Source: Blastocatellia bacterium
GTDB lineage: Bacteria; Acidobacteriota; Blastocatellia; HR10; J050
DNA: 50,534 nucleotides
Direction of reading: 5' to 3'
Assembly: GCA_025054955.1 (NCBI GenBank)
Contig: JANWZE010000143.1
Span: 1 to 50,534, forward strand
The position numbers and the translations under genes are program-made. This document shows, one piece after another, positions 13,108 to 37,873 of the stretch (positions within the stretch are counted from its first letter, which is position 1; each line of letters starts with the position of its first letter). The notes below the pieces were generated by a model. It was given only the letters and a program-made list of their open reading frames with translations, had not been told where the DNA came from and made no database searches.

Positions 13108-13203
13108 TTGTTCATGACCGGCCTCACGGCGCTGAAAAGACGAGCTGATTTCACTGGCGGATTTCAACGCCGATTATTCATGACCGGCCTCACGACGCTG
13201 ACT
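13108..13203. repeat. Direct repeat duplicating the 3' end of the UspA-like gene
   Basis: The segment ATTnTTCATGACCGGCCTCACGrCGCTGA occurs at about 13108 and again at about 13174, 66 bp apart. The right-hand copy covers the last codons and stop of the minus-strand stress protein gene; the left-hand copy is downstream of it. A local duplication of the gene end is the simplest reading. Confidence 0.6.
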
Positions 13204-14065
13204 CGCTGACCACCGTCAGCACCGGACAAGGCGCGTGCCGATTCACACGCACGGTCGTCGTGCCCAGCACGGTCGTGTTCAAGAAACGCCGATGTTGAGC
13301 GGCCATGACGATCATGTCGCAACCGAGTGAACTCGCGGTTGTGAGAATCTGCTCGGCTGCTTCACCCCGCGCCACGGTCTCCTGGAGGCGACAGCGCGCG
13401 CGAATATCTGGCGCAACCCATTCACAAAGACGATCCACCTCTTCTTCTTCGCTGGGCGGACTGCTCGGCGATTCGATCACGTGTAAGACCCATAGCTCCG
13501 CGCCTAAACAAGCAGCCAGCGCGCTGGCATGCTCGAGCGACCGCGCTGACGTGTCGGTGAAGTTGACGGGACAGAGCAGGCGTTGAATCGTCAGGCCAGA
13601 TGACGGGGCGACGGTTGATTGTGGGCGCACCGTCAGCACAGGCCGGCGCGTCTCACGCAGCACTTTCTCGGTGACCGAACCAAGCATCAGCCGGCTCCAG
13701 CCGCTCCGCCCATGCGTGCCCATGATAATCATGTCCGCGTTGTATTGGTCAGCCGTGGTCATAATCGCGCGAACGGGATAGTCTTCGACGACACGCGCTT
13801 CCGCCGGCACAGTCTGAGCGATGTGCTCGTGCACGTAACGATCCAGTTGCTCGCGAGCAAGGCGTTTGGACTGCTCTAAGACAGCGGCAATGTCTTCAGC
13901 CTGCCGCGTCGAAAAATAAGGCGGCGGCAGAAACGGGTCAGCAAAAATGACCTGCAATCGCGCGCCACAACGGGCAGCCAGACTCCCGGCATACTGCAAC
14001 GCCCCGGTGGCAATCTCGCTGAAGTCAGTCGGCACGAGAAACAAGTTCGATTGAAACAGTTGCAT
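13190..14065 (-). CDS. Tandem-domain universal stress protein
   Basis: 291 residues made of two UspA domains. Domain 1 (about 1-143) starts SNLFLVPTDFSEIATG and ends with GTHGRSGWSRLMLGSVTE, a complete G-x2-G-x9-G-S nucleotide motif. Domain 2 (about 150-291) starts RLLCPVNFTDTSARS and ends with the degenerate AAQHRRFLNTTVLGTTT, in which the first glycines are lost, so probably only domain 1 binds ATP. The start is the ATG after AGGAG (5 nt spacing); two GTG codons just upstream are less likely. It lies 45 bp after the DUF2892 gene, so both are probably transcribed from the shared stress promoter at 14364-14392. Confidence 0.92.
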   Translation of the reverse strand: MQLFQSNLFLVPTDFSEIATGALQYAGSLAARCGARLQVIFADPFLPPPYFSTRQAEDIAAVLEQSKRLAREQLDRYVHEHIAQTVPAEARVVEDYPVRAIMTTADQYNADMIIMGTHGRSGWSRLMLGSVTEKVLRETRRPVLTVRPQSTVAPSSGLTIQRLLCPVNFTDTSARSLEHASALAACLGAELWVLHVIESPSSPPSEEEEVDRLCEWVAPDIRARCRLQETVARGEAAEQILTTASSLGCDMIVMAAQHRRFLNTTVLGTTTVRVNRHAPCPVLTVVSESAS

Positions 14066-14110
14066 CACCACTCCTTTGGCGGCATCGAGCCGTCACGCTC
14101 GCTGGCCCTC

Positions 14111-14563: not shown

Positions 14564-14836
14564 TTATGAAGCATGCGGCTTCCAGTTGCTCCATTCGTTT
14601 TGCAGAACTTCTTTGAGATGATTTTTCATCTCATCGGGTAAGGGATGGTGGGGAAGCTCTTGGCACATCTGGATAGTCTTTCGCAGTGTATTGACAAACG
14701 CGACGCAGGGCGCGCAATCAGCGATATGGGCTTGAATCTCCTGACAGAGATGGGCAGGAAGCTGGCCATCAATGAATTCTGAAAGCAATGTCACCAACTG
14801 CTTGCATTCCATCATGTCAAATGCCTCATGATTCAT
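14564..14836 (-). CDS. Zinc-finger anti-sigma factor (zf-HC2 / ZAS type)
   Basis: 90 residues. MECKQLVTLLSEFIDGQLP and then HIADCAPCVAF give the zinc-binding pattern Cys...His-x3-Cys-x2-Cys of ZAS anti-sigma factors such as RsrA and ChrR, which hold an ECF sigma factor inactive and often release it when the thiols are oxidised or zinc is lost. No membrane helix is visible, so it is probably cytoplasmic. Its ATG overlaps the stop of the sigma gene (ATGA), so the two are translationally coupled. The finger region is nearly identical to the C-terminus of the fused protein at 34273-35223 (CAPCVAFVNTLRKTI in both). Confidence 0.9.
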   Translation of the reverse strand: MNHEAFDMMECKQLVTLLSEFIDGQLPAHLCQEIQAHIADCAPCVAFVNTLRKTIQMCQELPHHPLPDEMKNHLKEVLQNEWSNWKPHAS

Positions 14837-15450
14837 AGACCCATTTTCCCGACAAAGGATTCAGCCTCGGTCTGCCAGTATTGCGTCAGGCGGTCGCGCA
14901 CAAACAATCGAGCGCGGTGCAGCCGTGATTTAACGGCCTCCGGCGACAGATGAAGCGATTGGGCTGTTTCCTGCGTGCTCAGTTGTTCGATGTCCCGCAA
15001 GATCAGCACAACACGATAGGGGGGAGGTAGATCGGCGATGGCCTGCTCCACCTGCGTCTTGAGTTCAGCGCGTTGAAACAACTGGTCAGGATTCTGCGAC
15101 CAATCAGCAATGTCCGGTTTCTGGCCTTCACTGGCAGGCGTTGGGATCAGTTCATCCAACGAGAGTTCATGCTCAGGCTCAAATTTCCCCTTCCGCTTCA
15201 TTTTGCGGCAGGCGTTGGCGGCAATCGTGAAGAACCACGCGCGAAACGACCCTTGGCCGCGAAAATCCTTCAGGGATCGAAACACGCTGATGAGCGTCTC
15301 TTGAACGACGTCTTTGGCGTCTTCCTCATTCTTACACATCCGCGCGGCAAAACTGTATAGACGAGCTCCGTAGGTGTTGAATAATTCCTCAAAAGCTTCC
15401 TGCTTGCCGGACTTCAATGCCTCGACCAGCATGCGCTCACGTTCGTCCAT
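14833..15450 (-). CDS. ECF-type RNA polymerase sigma factor (RpoE-like)
   Basis: 205 residues. Region 2 (about 13-85) contains YSFAARMCKNEEDAKDVVQETLISVF and FRAWFFTIAANACRKMKRKG; region 4 (about 140-195) contains LPPPYRVVLILRDIEQLSTQ and a helix-turn-helix ending SPEAVKSRLHRAR. There is no region 1 or 3, as in all ECF factors. The linker has the unusual GKFEPEHELSLDE, shared exactly with the fused sigma protein in the sulfur island, so the two are close paralogues. It is coupled to the anti-sigma gene by overlap and divergent from the OsmC gene. It is the best candidate for recognising the TGAAyCC-N13-TGGATC motif found in this window, but that is inference. Confidence 0.95.
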   Translation of the reverse strand: MDERERMLVEALKSGKQEAFEELFNTYGARLYSFAARMCKNEEDAKDVVQETLISVFRSLKDFRGQGSFRAWFFTIAANACRKMKRKGKFEPEHELSLDELIPTPASEGQKPDIADWSQNPDQLFQRAELKTQVEQAIADLPPPYRVVLILRDIEQLSTQETAQSLHLSPEAVKSRLHRARLFVRDRLTQYWQTEAESFVGKMGL

Positions 15451-15460
15451 ACGCGGCTAC

Positions 15461-15489
15461 AGTCTATGGTGTGTCGGTGATTTGAGCAA
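15461..15489 (-). promoter_or_regulatory. Possible housekeeping promoter for the sigma/anti-sigma pair
   Basis: On the minus strand TTGCTC (15489-15484) and TAGACT (15466-15461) are 17 bp apart, 11 nt before the sigma ATG. Each hexamer has two mismatches to the sigma-70 consensus. The sigma gene has no copy of the ECF-type motif in its own orientation, so I do not see evidence for autoregulation here. The leader would be very short. Confidence 0.3.
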
Positions 15490-15493
15490 GCCG

Positions 15494-15522
15494 TGAACCC
15501 TTTTCGGCGATCTTGGATCAAG
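15494..15522 (+). promoter_or_regulatory. ECF-sigma-type promoter motif, copy 3 (OsmC unit)
   Basis: TGAACCC (15494-15500), 13 nt, TGGATCAAG (15514-15522), ending 37 nt before the OsmC start codon. It differs from the other copies by C for T in the upstream block and in the last two bases of the downstream block. It lies in the divergent space next to the ECF sigma gene. Confidence 0.65.
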
Positions 15523-15559
15523 AAGGATGGATGACAATCATACAGTAGGAGAACATACG

Positions 15560-16018
15560 ATGACGCAACAACTGCCATACTACTATGACACAATCGTTGA
15601 GTGGACGGGCGAGCGCAAGGGGCTGCTCAGCGCATCGAACCTGCCGACATTGACGGTCGCCACGCCACCTGAATTTCAAGGCCACGAGGGGATTTGGTCA
15701 CCGGAGCACCTCTACGTCGCCTCTGTCAATTCCTGCTTGATGACGACATTCCTAGCAATCGCCCAGATGTCAAAGCTGGAGTTTGTCAAGTTCCGCTCGC
15801 AAGCTCGCGGGCAACTGGATAAGGTCGAAGGTCAGGGATTTCAAATCACCAACATCGTCATTGAGCCACAGCTCACCATCGCGCGCGAGAGCGACCGGGA
15901 GCGCGCGCTGCGAATTTTGGAAAAGGCCGAGAAACATTGCCTGATCTCCAATTCAATTAAGACGACGGTGCGGGTTCAACCTGACATCCGCGTCGCCGAG
16001 ACGCAACAAGCGGCATGA
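15560..16018 (+). CDS. OsmC/Ohr family protein
   Basis: 152 residues. The family's two redox cysteines are visible: Cys59 in ASVNSCLMTTF and Cys127 in KHCLISNSI. OsmC-type proteins reduce organic hydroperoxides, and some act on persulfides or related thiol species, in the cytoplasm. SPEHLYVASVNSCLMTT is the classic helix around the peroxidatic Cys. Start at MTQQLP, with AGGAG 8 nt upstream; the open frame reaches 11 codons further with no site. It is preceded by stress promoter motif 3, divergent from the ECF sigma gene and followed by a membrane miniprotein. Confidence 0.93.
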   Translation: MTQQLPYYYDTIVEWTGERKGLLSASNLPTLTVATPPEFQGHEGIWSPEHLYVASVNSCLMTTFLAIAQMSKLEFVKFRSQARGQLDKVEGQGFQITNIVIEPQLTIARESDRERALRILEKAEKHCLISNSIKTTVRVQPDIRVAETQQAA

Positions 16019-30889: not shown

Positions 30890-32071
30890 TCACAGATGAA
30901 CGTACTGTCCCAGCGTCAGGGCCAGAGCGAGGCCAACGAGACCGACGAATAAAGCTCCAGCGAGGCCCACGGCAAAGGGTTTCAGGCCTACGCCCTTGAA
31001 CACCGAGAAGCTGGTCCCTAACCCGACAGCCGCCATCGCCGTGCCGAGCAGATATTGTGAGCCCCATACATCGCCGATCTCTTTGGTCAGGGCCTTCCAC
31101 GCCGAGGCGTCAAAAAGGCCGAACGCAGCGCCGCTTTGCACCCCCGCGTCGCCCAGCGAGCGCAGCACCGCCATGGCGATGAAGCCAACGACGAACAGCG
31201 GAAAGAGCTTGGTGATGCTCACGCGGGTGCTGCGGCCCTGCCCGCTTCGGTTGTTGCGCAGATAATACAAAGATAACGCAGGCACCACGGCAGCGAGGAA
31301 CAGATTGCGCGTCAGCTTGGTCACCGTCGCGGCCTTAAATGCCGTGTCGTCATTAAACACTTCTTTGTACGTCAGCGCAGCGCCGACGACTTGCGAAGTC
31401 TCATGCACAGCAGTTCCCAAAAACAGGCCGACTTGCTCCGAGCTGTGCAGGAGCAAGTGGGCAATGTACGGGTACAGGAACATGGCCATCAGGCCGAAGA
31501 GCGTGATATTGGCCACGGCATACGCCACTTCGCGGTCTTCTGCTTCAATGGCGGGAGCCGTCGAGACGATGGCCGTCACGCCACAAATTCCCGTGCCCGC
31601 AGCGATCAACGTTCCTAAGCGCTCCGGCAAGCGGAGCACCTTGTTGAACCAGCTCACGAACACCAGGCCTGAGGCAATCACCACCAAGACAATTGGCACT
31701 CCCCAACCACCCAGCCTGAGGACATCAACCAAGCTGAGCTTGATGCCCACAAAGATGATGCCCAACCGCAGTATCTTGGTGACGCTGAACTGAATACCGG
31801 GTTTGATCCATTCCGGCAAGATGATGGCATTGCGCAGAAGCATGCCGATGACAATGGCCATCAATACGCCGGAAACCGGGCTGGCCTTTCCGGTCGGGTC
31901 AATGCCTTGAAAACTCAAAACCCAGTTCCCGACCATGTTAGCCAGCGGTAACGCCACCAGCATAACGGTTGCGGCCAGGGCAACGCCGGGCACCAGCTTC
32001 ACCACCTCGCTCACCCGACTGACGCCAAAGATGGCTTTGACGAAAGGATTTGTTTCCACGTTTGCGCTCAT
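30890..32071 (-). CDS. YeiH family putative sulfate exporter (UPF0324)
   Basis: 393 residues with about ten membrane helices. Conserved family parts seen are GVLMAIVIGMLLRN, GIIFVGIKLSLVDVLRLGG, GTGICGVTAIVSTAPAIEAEDREVAYA and GTAVHETSQVVGAALTY. YeiH proteins are annotated as sulfate or small-anion exporters, with limited experimental support. Its place as the last gene of rhodanese/MBL-TusA-DsrE-YeiH (19 bp after DsrE) fits export of oxidised sulfur (sulfite or sulfate) formed by persulfide oxidation. The start is preceded by GGGAAGAG 5 nt upstream, a moderate site. Confidence 0.92.
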   Translation of the reverse strand: MSANVETNPFVKAIFGVSRVSEVVKLVPGVALAATVMLVALPLANMVGNWVLSFQGIDPTGKASPVSGVLMAIVIGMLLRNAIILPEWIKPGIQFSVTKILRLGIIFVGIKLSLVDVLRLGGWGVPIVLVVIASGLVFVSWFNKVLRLPERLGTLIAAGTGICGVTAIVSTAPAIEAEDREVAYAVANITLFGLMAMFLYPYIAHLLLHSSEQVGLFLGTAVHETSQVVGAALTYKEVFNDDTAFKAATVTKLTRNLFLAAVVPALSLYYLRNNRSGQGRSTRVSITKLFPLFVVGFIAMAVLRSLGDAGVQSGAAFGLFDASAWKALTKEIGDVWGSQYLLGTAMAAVGLGTSFSVFKGVGLKPFAVGLAGALFVGLVGLALALTLGQYVHL

Positions 32072-32089: not shown

Positions 32090-32713
32090 TCACACGAACA
32101 GGGTCACCCGCGATTTGAGGGCATCACCTAGGAACGTGGCGACGCCGCCTATGTCTAGGCCCTCAATTAACTCCTCATCCTTAATCCCCATCACGTCACG
32201 CGACATCTCGCAGGCGACCAAGCGCACGCCCAACTGGCGCGCCAGGGCGATCATCTCCTCAAGCGAATTGATTTGTTTCCGCTTCATCATGGCGCGCAGC
32301 ATCTTCGCTCCGATGCCGAAGAAGTTCATCTGCGACAGCGGCAATTCGTGCGTATTGGCCGGCGACATCAGCGCCATCAATTTCTCGAAAAGCTCTTTCC
32401 CTTCGGTGACTTTCTTGCGCCGCAGCGCATTCAGTCCCCAGAACGTGAAAAACATGCTCACCTGCTGGCCCAGCGCGGCTGCTCCGCTGGCGATGATGAA
32501 GGCGGCGAGCACCCTGTCCAGGTCGCCGGAGAAAACGACCACCGACACCCGGTCTTCCGGTAGACGCTCTTCAAGCTCAGCAAGCTTCTGCTCAACGGCT
32601 GCCAGTCTCTCGGCAATGTGGGCTGGCAACTGGCCGGAGGAAACGGACTCTTCATTGTCGTCGAGCGTGCTTTCGACTACTTGTTCTCGTTCAGTTTTCA
32701 CCAACGGTTCCAT
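32090..32713 (-). CDS. DsrE/DsrF/DrsH-like family protein
   Basis: 207 residues. An acidic N-terminal segment with a short coiled coil (ERLAAVEQKLAELEERL, about 31-47) precedes the DsrE fold: VVVFSGDLDRVLAAFIIASGAAALGQQVSMFFTFWG, read in parts, and the Cys site RLVACEMSRDVMGI, typical of the DsrE-like proteins that accompany TusA and rhodanese in sulfur transfer. The Cys probably carries a persulfide. It lies 71 bp after TusA and 19 bp before YeiH in the same operon. GGAG lies 8 nt before the ATG. Confidence 0.9.
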   Translation of the reverse strand: MEPLVKTEREQVVESTLDDNEESVSSGQLPAHIAERLAAVEQKLAELEERLPEDRVSVVVFSGDLDRVLAAFIIASGAAALGQQVSMFFTFWGLNALRRKKVTEGKELFEKLMALMSPANTHELPLSQMNFFGIGAKMLRAMMKRKQINSLEEMIALARQLGVRLVACEMSRDVMGIKDEELIEGLDIGGVATFLGDALKSRVTLFV

Positions 32714-32784: not shown

Positions 32785-33039
32785 TCAGCCAATCTTTTGC
32801 ACGTAGTGCACGTAGACTTCCTTGCCGTCAATGACTTCGGTCGCCTGGCTCACCAGCGAGATGTTCTTTGCCGTCTTGGCCCAACCCTGAAAGTCTTTCA
32901 CTGACCCGCGGTCGGTGGCAAGTACCTTGAGCACCTGACCGGGTTCTAAGGTGGTTATCTCCTGACGCGCATTGATAATGGGCAGCGGACAAGAAAGCCC
33001 GCGCGCGTCCAGCACTCTGTCAAAATTTATCGCTGTCAT
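32785..33039 (-). CDS. TusA family sulfurtransferase
   Basis: 84 residues, the normal length. DARGLSCPLPIINARQEI carries the family Cys-Pro-x-Pro motif, whose Cys accepts sulfane sulfur, followed by EPGQVLKVLATDRGSVKDF, a typical TusA/SirA strand. It shuttles persulfide sulfur between cytoplasmic partners; here the likely partners are the rhodanese domain and the DsrE-like protein encoded next to it. It starts 7 bp after the rhodanese/MBL gene and has GGAGGT 10 nt before ATG, so the two are tightly coupled. Confidence 0.94.
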   Translation of the reverse strand: MTAINFDRVLDARGLSCPLPIINARQEITTLEPGQVLKVLATDRGSVKDFQGWAKTAKNISLVSQATEVIDGKEVYVHYVQKIG

Positions 33040-33046
33040 CGTTCAT

Positions 33047-34228
33047 TCACCTCCCAGTTGGAATCGCGCTCGCCGCGCATTGATTCTTGCCGAGTTCCAT
33101 CTCGGTCACCTCATCTTCGTCGGCCTGAATCCATCCGAGGTTGGCCTTACGGATCTTGCCGTAGATGGCCGGTTGCTCGGAAAGGCTGGCCAGCACGGAT
33201 CGGATGAATTCTTCCTCGCTTCTGCTTTGCATGACCGCGTTGGTGCGGCGAATCTCCCCAAGCCTTTCCGTCACCAATCCATCCTCTCTCTGCTCATCCG
33301 CGGAAGAGAAATGCGCCGGTAGAACCCACACATCATCCGGCAGAGGGGCAAGTTTCTCGAAGAGGGTGCGATACAAATCGCGTGCCCAGGGTTCGGCCTG
33401 ACCACCCAGGTCCGGTCGGCCTGCGCCTAAAACGAAGATCGTATCGCCGGTCAGCAGGAACTTGTCGTTGATGAGGAACGTCGTGCTGCCGGGCGTGTGT
33501 CCCGGTGTCTCAAGAGCAATGACGCGCAACGTCACATTGCCCACGTCGAACCGCTGACCATCCCGGAGCGACTCATAGGGGAAGCGGGCTCCCTCAGCAT
33601 CCGCCATCCGAATGTGGTAAGTGGCTCCCACGCGCTCAGCCAGCGCCGCTCCACCTGAGATGTGATCGGCATGCAGGTGGGTATCGAAGACATGCTTGAT
33701 CTTCAGCCCCTTTTCATTGGCTAGGTTGATGTACTGGTCAATATGACGTGACGGGTCAACGACGATGGCCTCACCCGCCGAACCGATCAGGTACGAGAGG
33801 CACCCCTTGCCGAACCGGTTGATCTGATAGAACACAATGTCAGGCTGCCCTTCCTTGGCCATTGACACCTCAGTGAATTGATGGGCATTGCCCCATGCAA
33901 TCATCCCACCCGCCAGATTCCGTGCCTGATAGCCACGCTCACTGAGCAACTGAGCAACATACTCGGAAGACCCGCCCTTTGCGCATACGACCGTGATCTC
34001 ACGACCCTTGGGAACCTTGCCGATGTTGACCTCAGGGTCTTCCAAGAAATCGAAGTATGGGATGTGAAGTGTTTCCACCGCGTCCTTGCCCTCGATGCGC
34101 CATTGCTGGAATTCATCCTCGTTGCGCACATCGAGGATGAATGGTTTCTCTCCCAGAGCCAGTTCGCGCATGAGCTGTTCTGGTGTGACACTGCGAACGT
34201 TCTGTATCGTTGTGCTCATCTCATTCAT
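33047..34228 (-). CDS. Rhodanese-metallo-beta-lactamase fusion (persulfide dioxygenase-like)
   Basis: 393 residues. An N-terminal rhodanese domain (about 14-120) has catalytic Cys82 in VVCAKGGSSEY. The second domain (about 132-345) is of the MBL fold: THLHADH at 183-189 and GHTPGSTTFLI, as in ETHE1-type persulfide dioxygenases, which oxidise glutathione- or CoA-persulfide to sulfite at mono-iron. About 50 residues follow with no clear motif. The rhodanese-first order is the reverse of CstB. It probably oxidises sulfane sulfur and passes thiosulfate or persulfide to TusA. First gene of a four-gene operon, divergent from the fused sigma/anti-sigma gene with only 44 bp between start codons. GGAGG lies 8 nt before ATG. 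Confidence 0.92.
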   Translation of the reverse strand: MNEMSTTIQNVRSVTPEQLMRELALGEKPFILDVRNEDEFQQWRIEGKDAVETLHIPYFDFLEDPEVNIGKVPKGREITVVCAKGGSSEYVAQLLSERGYQARNLAGGMIAWGNAHQFTEVSMAKEGQPDIVFYQINRFGKGCLSYLIGSAGEAIVVDPSRHIDQYINLANEKGLKIKHVFDTHLHADHISGGAALAERVGATYHIRMADAEGARFPYESLRDGQRFDVGNVTLRVIALETPGHTPGSTTFLINDKFLLTGDTIFVLGAGRPDLGGQAEPWARDLYRTLFEKLAPLPDDVWVLPAHFSSADEQREDGLVTERLGEIRRTNAVMQSRSEEEFIRSVLASLSEQPAIYGKIRKANLGWIQADEDEVTEMELGKNQCAASAIPTGR

Positions 34229-34272: not shown

Positions 34273-35223
34273 ATGCAAAACCAGGCCAAAGGATACATCG
34301 AAGGCGGGCAATCTGACAGTCTACTGGAACTCTTTCACCGCGCTAAGTCGGGTGATTCCGAGGCTCTCGATCAATTCTTCGCGCTCATCAAGGCGCGAGT
34401 TTCATCCTTCGGCAAGAGGGTCTGCGGCAACTTGGAGGACGCTTATGACATGTTGCAGGAGACCTTGCTTTCGATGTTCAAATCGCTTCCTAAGCTCGAC
34501 TTCAAAGATCCAAAGGCCTTGAACGTGTGGCTCTACAGAGTGGCCGTGAATGCCTGCCTGATGATGCGACGCAAAGGCAAGTTCGAACCCGAGCATGAAC
34601 TCTCACTTGACGAATTCATCCCAGGCGGCCAAGACGATGGGAAAACCCTTGAAATCCCCGATTGGTCGAATATCCCCGAAGAGAGATTGCTCGAAAACGA
34701 GATCAAGGAAGCCGTAAACAGGGCGACGCAAGCCTTGCCAGCGAACTACCGAAAAGTGCTGGTGCTCAGAGATATGGAAGGGCTTTCAACGAAAGATGTA
34801 GCCAAAGTATTGGGCATCTCCGAGCACAACGTTAAGATTCGCTTGCATCGCGCCCGGCTTGCTCTGCGGCGGGAACTGGAGGGATACTTCCTCGCTCATA
34901 GGCAAGGGCTGGATCAAAGGATTGAACTCAAACGAGCTAGTATTCCGCAAGAAAGCAAGTCGGCCTGCCGTGATATACTCCAGAAGCTCTCCGAATACTT
35001 AGACGGCCAACTCCGCCCCAAGCTGTGTCAGCGCATTGAGCGCCACCTGCAAGACTGTGCCCCATGCGTGGCGTTTGTCAATACGCTGCGGAAAACGATC
35101 GAACTATGTCGAAGCTATGCCGCCGACGAAAAGATGACAATTCCGCCAGAGGAGAAGGAAAAGCTCAGAGCGGCCTTGGAGGCCTGTCGGCAGGCGATCT
35201 TGCAGGATCGGACATCGCCTTGA
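34273..35223 (+). CDS. Single-chain ECF sigma factor fused to zinc-finger anti-sigma domain
   Basis: 316 residues in one open frame. Region 2 (about 20-100): EALDQFFALIKARVSSF, GNLEDAYDMLQETLLSMFK, NVWLYRVAVNACLMMRRKG. Region 4 (about 148-200): LPANYRKVLVLRDMEGLST and the helix-turn-helix GISEHNVKIRLHRARLALRR. After a linker (about 203-228) comes a ZAS-type zinc finger: Cys232 in SACRDILQKLSEYLDGQL, and HLQDCAPCVAF (His258, Cys262, Cys265). A separate sigma/anti-sigma pair at 14564-15450 shares GKFEPEHELSLDE and CAPCVAFVNTLRKTI, so this is a fused paralogue. I infer that the finger folds back on the sigma part and is released by oxidation, persulfidation or zinc loss. Start MQNQ has only a weak ribosome site; an upstream ATG (34210) overlaps the divergent gene. 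Confidence 0.93.
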   Translation: MQNQAKGYIEGGQSDSLLELFHRAKSGDSEALDQFFALIKARVSSFGKRVCGNLEDAYDMLQETLLSMFKSLPKLDFKDPKALNVWLYRVAVNACLMMRRKGKFEPEHELSLDEFIPGGQDDGKTLEIPDWSNIPEERLLENEIKEAVNRATQALPANYRKVLVLRDMEGLSTKDVAKVLGISEHNVKIRLHRARLALRRELEGYFLAHRQGLDQRIELKRASIPQESKSACRDILQKLSEYLDGQLRPKLCQRIERHLQDCAPCVAFVNTLRKTIELCRSYAADEKMTIPPEEKEKLRAALEACRQAILQDRTSP

Positions 35224-35264
35224 CCCTCAGTATGTGTTCCATCAGTTTGGCCTGAACGCCCAGG

Positions 35265-35837
35265 TCAATTCTGAACGGGCGCCTTAGCGCGCTCCCGCAT
35301 CCTTCGCTCTAGTCGCGTGAGCCACCAGATGACCCCCACTAACATCAGGGCAAATGCCAGAGCCACCGGCAGAACGGGCAACCCCAACACAGAAGGGATC
35401 GTGATCTTCCCCAGGTTTGCCGGTTCGATCAGGATCGGCTTCAGCCAAGGATAGACGACGATGAACGCCAATGCGCCCATCAGTCCTCCCACCACGGCCA
35501 AGATCGCTTCGCCGATGCCAGAGCCAAGGCCCACAACGGCGGTCCCCGGACAATACCCGCCGAGCGCGATGCCGACTCCGAAAATGAACCCGCCAGCGAT
35601 TACACCCCACAGGTACAACGGTTTGATCTTCCAATGAACCAGCTCTGGCGACAACGCGCTGAGCGCTGCGATCCCGATCAAGCTCACCACGATGGCCGTC
35701 AGCATCACCTTGAGCATCGTGAAATCTCTCAGCCAAAGACCGCGATGCACGAGATTGCACCGGCTGAATCCGGCCCGGTGCAGCGCAAATCCAAACCCGA
35801 TGCCCGTGAGGAATCCTAAAAGTAGCGTCGTGGTCAT
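35265..35837 (-). CDS. YeeE/YedE family membrane protein, half 1
   Basis: 190 residues with about five membrane helices. GFALHRAGFSRCNLVHRGLWLRD includes Cys27, and ALGGYCPGTAVVGLGSG includes Cys95, the GGYCPGT hallmark of YeeE/YedE (TsuA-type) proteins that move thiosulfate or sulfur across the membrane using membrane-embedded cysteines. The sequence corresponds to one half of full-length YeeE; the other half is the gene just upstream (21 bp gap), so the two probably form a heterodimer. GGAGGG lies 8 nt before ATG. It converges with the fused sigma gene. Confidence 0.92.
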   Translation of the reverse strand: MTTTLLLGFLTGIGFGFALHRAGFSRCNLVHRGLWLRDFTMLKVMLTAIVVSLIGIAALSALSPELVHWKIKPLYLWGVIAGGFIFGVGIALGGYCPGTAVVGLGSGIGEAILAVVGGLMGALAFIVVYPWLKPILIEPANLGKITIPSVLGLPVLPVALAFALMLVGVIWWLTRLERRMRERAKAPVQN

Positions 35838-35858
35838 CTCAATTCCCTCCTTGACGAA

Positions 35859-36431
35859 TTACCGGGACGGCTCTCGGAACAAAAGCTTGGCGAAGAGCAT
35901 CCCGGTACCAAAGGCCACGGCTCCGAAAACCAGTCCGCTAATGGCCATCTGTGCCATTCCGCTCAACATGTGCCCGGTCGTACATCCTCCGGCGAGCCTC
36001 GCTCCGAAGATGAAGAGGAACCCGCCCAGCCAGGCGCGAACGTAGCGCCGCATCCGGCTGCCCTCGAAACCCGTCACGCAGACGGGCGCAACGGCCGGCT
36101 GGCTGTGAAGCCCTCCCTTCATGCGGCCTAAAAGAAAAGAGAGCAATGCTCCCGTAAATAACCCCGCCAGGAGCATCACCTCCCAGGTGACTCCAGTTCC
36201 GATCTCGCGTAGATAGAGCTGTTGCGCGGCGAAACCGGGGAAGAGGCGATCAAGCACCAATCCAACAAACTGCGGATAGGCCGTTGAGACGCCAAGGGGT
36301 GCGACCGTGGCGATGGCAAATATCTGCACGAGCCCAATCAACGCGCCCCATTTCAGCCAATTTGGCATGCGAGCCGCATCTGACTTCCCTGTCGCCGGAA
36401 ATGTGCGTACTTTCATTTCACTAACAGCCAT
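35859..36431 (-). CDS. YeeE/YedE family membrane protein, half 2
   Basis: 190 residues. A hydrophilic N-terminus of about 25 residues precedes roughly four or five helices; GARLAGGCTTGHMLSGMAQMA (shown in part: GGCTTGH, Cys150) is the second YeeE/YedE signature, and a further Cys is in PVCVTGF (about 118). Together with the 35265-35837 gene it makes up a split thiosulfate/sulfur transporter. GGAGG is 9 nt before the ATG. It starts 19 bp after the truncated peroxiredoxin gene and is probably co-transcribed with it. Confidence 0.92.
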   Translation of the reverse strand: MAVSEMKVRTFPATGKSDAARMPNWLKWGALIGLVQIFAIATVAPLGVSTAYPQFVGLVLDRLFPGFAAQQLYLREIGTGVTWEVMLLAGLFTGALLSFLLGRMKGGLHSQPAVAPVCVTGFEGSRMRRYVRAWLGGFLFIFGARLAGGCTTGHMLSGMAQMAISGLVFGAVAFGTGMLFAKLLFREPSR

Positions 36432-36450: not shown

Positions 36451-36759
36451 TTATCCAGGCTCACTGAGTAGCCGTCCGGCTGAGGCGATCAAAGACAGGC
36501 CGGCCTGCTCATCAACGTAGACGCTGTCGCTGCTCAGACCCCGCGATTCTACGCCGTGCTCTTTCAGTTGTGGCGTGATCTCAGCGACCGCCAGAAACTT
36601 GGTGGTACACACCGGAGTCAAATCCGCCAGTTGCGAGAACGATAGCAACCAATCCCCACTGAAGTCTCCAAGCCCCACCCGGCCGTGCGTTATCTCGGCC
36701 TCAAGGGCCGGAGCCGGCTCACCCAGCCGAGGTAGACTCGGTCCAGCGGCTACGCTCAT
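36451..36759 (-). pseudogene. Truncated 1-Cys peroxiredoxin (Prx6-like) remnant
   Basis: 102 residues that match only the N-terminal half of Prx6/AhpC-type peroxiredoxins, which are normally above 200. Family pieces are LPRLGEPAPALEAEITHG, LLSFSQLADLTPVCTTKF (Cys51; normally SHPADFTPVCTTE) and EITPQLKEHGVE. After LSSDSVYVDEQAG the similarity stops and the frame ends within 17 codons. The His-Pro before the active site is changed to Gln-Leu and the Glu after CTT to Lys, so activity is doubtful even for the retained part. The intact ribosome binding site and tight spacing to the YeeE gene suggest that it may still be translated. It could now serve only to lead the operon. Confidence 0.75.
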
Positions 36760-37093
36760 CCTTTTTCTTCCTCCCTCTCGCTGATCCACACGTGATAAAT
36801 GCATTGTGCGGGGATACGGATACACTGGCGCTGTTTTTCTCAAGCTGGCCTCAATGATGTGCAGCAAACTACCAGCCTGGTCCAGGCCATTATGGATACA
36901 GAACGGATCGAAAGCCCAACGATATTGACCTCGCTGTCGCGCCTTTGCTGCTCAAAGCTTTCACATCGAATCTCCAAAACAGATTGTGGGGAATCACGTC
37001 AAACCTCTATAGTGTATCTTCTTTTGATGATCCGCATTTCTAACATCGGAGAGGCAGGATTCATAGCATAGCAGTGAAGAGACGGTTGAAAGA
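36760..37093. other. Divergent promoter region between the YeeE operon and tauE-like gene
   Basis: About 330 bp between divergent genes. It should hold both promoters. I see no copy of the TGAAyCC-N13-TGGATC motif; the downstream-like word TGGATCA occurs alone (minus strand, about 36783-36789) with no upstream block at the right distance. AT-rich words such as TATAGTGTATC near 37008-37020 may be a -10 for the plus-strand gene. Confidence 0.3.
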
Positions 37094-37873
37094 ATGGCGG
37101 TGGGTTTGAACGTGATTCTTGGATTGTTACTGAGCGCGGCCATCGGTTTATCGCTGGGATTGATTGGTGGCGGCGGCTCGATTATCACGGTGCCGGTGCT
37201 CGTTTATGTGATCGGCGTCGAGCCGCATCAGGCCATAGGTATGTCGCTTGCCGTGGTAGGTGTCACCAGCCTGATCGGTGCGGTCCTTCATTCGCGGCGC
37301 GACACGGTGCGTTGGGGAACGGGTCTGCTTTTCGGCGGTTCCGGGATTTTCGGGGCATTTTTCGGCGCGCGGCTGACACATCTGTTTTCGCCGGGGGCGT
37401 TGCTGCTGCTGTTTGCCGCCTTGATGATAGTGATCGCGCTACTGATGTTGAAAAAGAAGCCACACGAAGTCAACGGAAACGGATCGCGGCAGTTCAGTTT
37501 TGGCAAGGCCATCTTGGCCGGCGTAGGCGTCGGCACATTGACAGGTTTTCTTGGCGTGGGCGGCGGTTTCCTCGTGGTGCCGGCAATGAGGCTCTTTGGT
37601 GGGCTGGCGATGAAGGAGGCCATCGGCACATCGCTTGTGGTGATCGCCATTAACTGCGCCGCCGGATTGCTGGGGCAGATGCAGCATGGCAGCGACTTCG
37701 ACATGGGAATGACAATTTTGGTGGCAACGCTGGCGGCTATCGGTATGCTGGCGGGCGTGACATTCTCGCATAACACGTCGGCGGAACGGCTTAACAAAGG
37801 ATTCGCAGCTTTTGTGTTGGCTGTAGCAATCTTCCTGGTGGCGAAAAACTATCAGGTGCTGATCGCCTGGTGA
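37094..37873 (+). CDS. TauE/SafE family sulfite exporter (TSUP)
   Basis: 259 residues with seven or eight membrane helices and the internal duplication typical of the family: GLSLGLIGGGGSIITVPVLV in the first half and GTLTGFLGVGGGFLVVPAM in the second, each followed by AIGMSLAVV / AIGTSLVVI. Members export sulfite, sulfoacetate or related anions. In the sulfur island it could remove sulfite made by the persulfide dioxygenase. The ribosome binding site is weak (GAAAGA). A degraded OsmC fragment lies 84 bp downstream. Confidence 0.93.
   Translation: MAVGLNVILGLLLSAAIGLSLGLIGGGGSIITVPVLVYVIGVEPHQAIGMSLAVVGVTSLIGAVLHSRRDTVRWGTGLLFGGSGIFGAFFGARLTHLFSPGALLLLFAALMIVIALLMLKKKPHEVNGNGSRQFSFGKAILAGVGVGTLTGFLGVGGGFLVVPAMRLFGGLAMKEAIGTSLVVIAINCAAGLLGQMQHGSDFDMGMTILVATLAAIGMLAGVTFSHNTSAERLNKGFAAFVLAVAIFLVAKNYQVLIAW

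Follow-up and report, generated by a model that had tools for sequence, protein, structure and literature searches.

A soluble ECF sigma factor joined to a ZAS-type anti-sigma domain among sulfide-oxidation genes of a Blastocatellia bacterium

Sigma factors fused to an anti-sigma are known in ECF48, ECF52 and ECF53, which combine a zinc finger with membrane helices, in IutY (ECF243) and in some members of ECF270 (PMC8999054; PMC5826349). In ECF52 (SCO4117), ECF48 and ECF53 the sigma is followed by a zf-HC2 domain in a single chain, as in the protein described here, but these proteins are found only in Actinobacteria and have a long part outside the cytoplasm along with membrane helices, while the present protein is predicted to be soluble. 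Fused members of ECF270, like WP_011419852.1 of Anaeromyxobacter dehalogenans (PMC8999054 Table 2), also consist of an ECF sigma with a regulatory extension. Other members of the group use a soluble anti-sigma and the review gives neither signal nor regulon for ECF270 (PMC8999054). CorE and CorE2 (ECF238) are cytoplasmic ECF sigma factors that act without an anti-sigma and likewise have a cysteine-containing carboxyl-terminal extension. However, theirs is a different cysteine-rich domain, they carry a CxC motif in the linker between sigma2 and sigma4, and they respond to metals.

In the SigR-RsrA and SigH-RshA pairs an ECF sigma is held by a CHCC-type ZAS with the same order of cysteines as found here, but the two partners are separate proteins, whose known signal is disulfide stress. 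Cys11 of RsrA, its amino-terminal zinc ligand, is the redox trigger and pairs with Cys41/Cys44 (PMC4960319). CHCC ZAS proteins are disulfide-stress sensors, and HHCC ZAS proteins, lacking the amino-terminal Cys, do not sense this stress in the manner of RsrA (PMC4960319). For the gene neighbourhood the closest parallel is the bigR operon of Xylella and Agrobacterium, which places sulfur transferase/dioxygenase and TauE genes under a thiol-switch regulator answering H2S and polysulfide (PMC5823870). BigR is an ArsR-type repressor, whereas a sigma factor is the sole regulator among the scanned neighbours at the present locus. A literature search for an ECF sigma or RsrA tied to persulfide or sulfane sulfur found none among the papers listed. 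The novelty lies in the sulfide-oxidation gene context of a soluble fused ECF-ZAS, sigma/anti-sigma fusion itself being already known.

The window, the whole stretch of 50,534 nucleotides that was analysed, codes on its + strand for a fused ECF sigma-ZAS protein of 316 amino acids (34273..35223), recognized by its open frame, its Pfam domains and a fused ortholog (P0002). Reading of the window's ORFs gives a single unbroken frame from the ATG at 34273 to the stop at 35223. Along it lie, on the same strand, sigma region 2 (aa 41-103, 34393..34581; PF04542 Sigma70_r2, 41.4 bits, cut-off 24), sigma region 4 (aa 146-198, 34708..34866; PF08281 Sigma70_r4_2, 61.5 bits, cut-off 25.7), a linker (aa 205-231, 34885..34965), the ZAS zinc finger (zf-HC2, aa 232-265, 34966..35067; PF13490, 45.7 bits, cut-off 22.2) and the ZAS carboxyl-terminal helices (35080..35220), placed from the ZAS alignment and predicted at aa 263-284 and 292-313, which include the conserved C279. 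The initial annotation had described sigma regions 2 and 4 running into a Cys...His-x3-Cys-x2-Cys finger, and its coordinates and domain order proved right: the ligand pattern is C232...H258-x3-C262-x2-C265, accompanied by the further cysteines C252 (conserved) and C279. The ECF superfamily model TIGR02937 (NCBIfam) matches at 87.5 bits (cut-off 42.9), and the protein has sigma2 and sigma4 without sigma3, the organization by which ECF sigma factors are recognized.

Traits of other groups were sought in the window protein. The SnoaL-like carboxyl-terminal domain of ECF41 gave no Pfam match at E 0.1, and the CxC of the ECF238 sigma2-sigma4 linker is absent, residues 96-231 being devoid of Cys. 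Its extension stops ~50 aa past the finger. No membrane span was found in the extensions of 46 fused proteins (19-aa hydropathy maximum 1.09); the window protein is thus predicted to be soluble, and an ECF52-like membrane-anchored form was ruled out, there being no hydrophobic span after the finger. RsrA-type redox ZAS proteins are separate from their sigma, unlike the window ZAS, which shares the sigma's frame and has no start of its own: no in-frame ATG, GTG or TTG occurs in the linker, nor anywhere from sigma4 to the ZAS cysteines of the window gene, from which a free ZAS could be initiated. Cysteines C51 and C95 of sigma region 2 (window numbering) are kept in 45/46 fused proteins and in about three quarters of separate homologs.

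The fused ortholog P0002 belongs to a genome of another family in the same order (G005) and is 74% identical to the window protein. Its locus repeats the layout of the window, with divergent PDO-TusA-DsrE2-YeiH genes, two convergent YeeE genes and TauE beyond. A sequencing or assembly error creating the joined frame, which the initial annotation had named as a possible refutation, is ruled out by this independent genome; the fusion is beyond chance because frame, domain order and neighbours all recur there. Between the two orthologs conservation is lowest in the linker (31% identity in a 26-residue block, aa 211-240) and highest in the carboxyl-terminal part of the ZAS, with one difference in the last 46 aa. 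Window 35080-35840, which takes in the 3' end of the fused gene together with the YeeE gene next to it, is 94-98% identical in amino acids to the ortholog with few synonymous changes, the rest of the locus being more distant; either local recombination or extra constraint would account for this closeness.

Across 73 aligned ZAS domains (28 fused and 45 separate) C232, H258, C262 and C265 are invariant. C279 is a Cys in all 27 fused rows with a residue at that position and in 19/45 separate rows. C232 aligns with RsrA Cys11, the RsrA letters used in this comparison of cysteine patterns having been entered by hand, and since the amino-terminal ligand is Cys in 73/73 domains the set is of the CHCC kind. 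Among PDB sequences the window ZAS has weak matches to RsiW and RsrA (5frf), though over the right stretch. From the ligands it probably binds zinc.

The same domain order was looked for in related genomes, as the initial annotation had suggested, and the fused homologs number at least 46 in all. Together with the fused proteins of the literature (PMC8999054), they leave the idea that a joined sigma and anti-sigma is exceptional without support. A first scan of the genome contigs with the window protein as single query gave no matches. Of 80 homologous loci on contigs of named genomes, 27 carry the fusion, in 46 the ZAS is the next gene, and in 7 no ZAS was detected; the separate sigma and ZAS genes often overlap by 4-20 nt. 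In a draw of 396 Acidobacteriota genomes, placed in that phylum by named records interspersed among them in the tree, many homologs are fused and many separate. A sigma tree, made with FastTree in its larger version, has one fused clade of Acidobacteriota (window, G005 and Acidobacteriaceae), a second one with Myxococcota, some Acidobacteriota and one Bdellovibrionales MAG, and a lone fused stray, L020, outside both. The fused Anaeromyxobacter homolog (L118) sits in the second clade; this and the shared architecture give the window protein an indirect link to ECF270. On the 120-row tree four changes of the fused/separate label are needed, at least two of them imposed by branches with good support. 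These label changes and branches indicate that overlapping sigma and ZAS genes fused at least twice and that the fusion is stable once formed.

The window itself contains an unfused paralogous pair on the - strand. Its ECF sigma (14833..15450) is 47% identical to the sigma part of the fused protein, and the separate 90-aa ZAS (14564..14836) has the same C/C/H/C/C/C pattern and overlaps the sigma gene by 4 nt. Unfused homologs that carry the same ZAS as an adjoining or overlapping gene, this one included, explain the origin of the fused gene. The latter is most likely a genuine joining of two translationally coupled genes, for an ECF sigma and a soluble CHCC-type ZAS, and the pair at 14564-15450 is its probable model. 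With a divergent OsmC gene on one side (window 14564-16018 for pair and OsmC) and a universal-stress-like gene (13190-14071) following it, the unfused pair likely forms a thiol/peroxide regulon. Two other loci deserve mention. A match with an in-frame TAG in genome G039, considered as a read-through intermediate, is actually a sigma gene on its own, with another anti-sigma gene after it. The stray L020 (L020:9665-11099) codes for a third, divergent sigma-ZAS with many Met codons just ahead of its ZAS part and has a second, free ZAS-like ORF downstream; this fusion may be recent.

Divergent from the fused gene, on the - strand, are genes for a rhodanese-MBL protein resembling persulfide dioxygenase (PDO; 33047..34228; PF00581 and PF00753), whose 89% identical ortholog adjoins the ortholog sigma gene, a TusA-like sulfur carrier (32785..33039; PF01206), a DsrE2-like protein (32090..32713; PF13686) and a YeiH-like membrane protein (Cons_hypoth698; 30890..32071; PF03601). 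Convergent, also on the - strand, are two genes for YeeE-like sulphur transport proteins (35265..35837 and 35859..36431; both PF04143, Sulf_transp), and a TauE/SafE sulfite exporter-like gene lies beyond on the + strand (37094..37873; PF01925). The initial annotation had placed the fused gene between a persulfide-oxidation and a thiosulfate-transport operon. The flanking PDO-like, TusA, DsrE2 and YeiH-like genes and the two Sulf_transp genes bear this out, but not the specificity for thiosulfate: the YeeE-like genes match TsuA models far under their cut-offs, so 'sulphur transport' is the safe name. Upstream of the second YeeE gene a short AhpC/TSA-like ORF (window 36451-36867, - strand) covers about half of the profile and may be a remnant of a peroxiredoxin.

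The persulfide/sulfur neighbourhood is repeated in unrelated lineages. On one strand, the Bdellovibrionales MAG (L146) has sigma-ZAS, MBL-rhodanese, Sulf_transp, DUF6691 and TauE genes, and an Acidobacteriota G407 locus (L058) has sigma-ZAS, MBL-rhodanese, DUF1641, an SQR-looking pyridine nucleotide-disulphide oxidoreductase and a TauE-like gene. In Corallococcus (L109) MBL, rhodanese-like, TauE-like and two YeeE-like genes are found 2.3-5.6 kb from the fused gene. In two of these three loci the fused gene is the first of an apparent operon. PDO-like genes occur at ~0.7 per genome at E 1e-15 (84 rows in 119 Acidobacteriota genomes), from which ~0.1 would be expected by chance in the ~0.5 Mb of other fused loci; this estimate is rough, two of the three loci being from other phyla. 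Of ten genomes of the window's order, two have the fused gene, and the same two have the orthologous PDO. At E 1e-10 the window's genome gave no match to the SQR of L058, in a search run without positive control, and a motif scan upstream of the sigma, PDO, YeeE and OsmC genes gave no convincing ECF-like promoter. In a planctomycete (L154:637-2649) a separate sigma-ZAS pair adjoins a gene for an MBL-fold protein that matches a PDO by tblastn.

AlphaFold modelling of 28 fused sequences gave confident helices (mean pLDDT 79), while the domain arrangement is uncertain because pTM is only 0.43. The modelled sigma2/sigma4 is closest to SigW bound to RsiW (5wuq; Z 14.9, rmsd 3.8 over 157 residues), and RNAP-bound ECF sigmas superpose on it at ~27 A rmsd only. 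This closed arrangement of the model agrees with an inhibited form but falls short of proof, and could be a habit of the model. For the isolated ZAS four helices are predicted and fold matches are weak (RslA, Z 3.4).

An inhibitor-type zinc-cysteine domain and recurrent sulfide-detoxification neighbours suggest that the fused protein may be a one-piece sensor of sulfur or oxidants. We infer from these features how it would inhibit itself, what it would sense and which promoters it would serve. Under reducing conditions in the cell the ZAS, with zinc bound, would fold onto its own sigma2/sigma4 and block access to RNA polymerase. Persulfide, polysulfide or oxidants would hit the zinc cysteines, leading to loss of zinc, and a link of C232 with C262 or C265 would form and collapse the ZAS as in RsrA. 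The sigma, still tethered, would then become active at the flanking PDO and sulfur-transport promoters. As a single chain it might switch irrespective of its concentration, as the initial annotation had proposed. Such a thiol switch in one chain, off with zinc bound and turned on by oxidation or persulfidation, driving sulfide detoxification, is favoured here with a probability of about 0.55.

The same fusion might respond instead to general disulfide or oxidant stress, like RsrA and RshA, with the sulfur genes being only part of a thiol-stress regulon. The sensing of disulfide stress by CHCC ZAS proteins (PMC4960319) and the OsmC gene beside the unfused paralog pair speak for this. Most fused homologs, from Acidobacteriaceae, adjoin efflux, OsmC or unrelated genes, not PDO, which counts against the sulfide-oxidation reading. 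Further fused copies have genes for OsmC, AhpC, thioredoxin or efflux pumps beside them; the wider fused family may therefore answer general thiol stress. The linkage to PDO, YeeE and TauE is nevertheless repeated in independent lineages, and the fused gene co-occurs with its PDO within the order; general stress is a less likely but serious alternative as the signal at the present locus. Among Acidobacteriaceae-type fused copies (L047-L057, L084-L112) outer-membrane efflux (OEP, 8/61 neighbours), HlyD and OsmC genes are often close by.

Activation by proteolysis, with the ZAS cut off or degraded to free the sigma (a route proposed for ECF52 and demonstrated for IutY), would fit the poorly conserved linker, which tolerates changes of length, and the review places fused ECF270, ECF48/52/53 and IutY under such control (PMC8999054). 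It is improbable here, given the lack of the membrane span that regulated intramembrane proteolysis needs and the invariant redox ligands, which suggest a chemical switch. A ZAS that no longer inhibits, persisting as a relic or as a structural or dimerisation part of a sigma controlled by expression alone, accords with the uncertain docking of the domains in the model and with the deduced nature of the inhibition itself. Yet the four zinc ligands and C279 are retained across at least two independent fused clades and the ZAS end is the best conserved part between the two orthologs, so that this reading has very little likelihood.

Extended beyond the window, the thiol switch leads to a more tentative proposal. 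Soluble ECF-ZAS fusions might be a class of one-component sigma factors, arisen more than once, whose zinc thiols sense persulfide or polysulfide and which activate operons for sulfide oxidation directly, taking the role played elsewhere by repressors of the BigR/SqrR/CstR type. If so, sigma factors would join the regulators that sense persulfide, which in the cited papers are repressors, and a fused ECF kind listed without signal or regulon would gain a candidate for both. The protein would also offer a compact natural system for testing how a sigma switches while tethered to its inhibitor, useful in circuit design.
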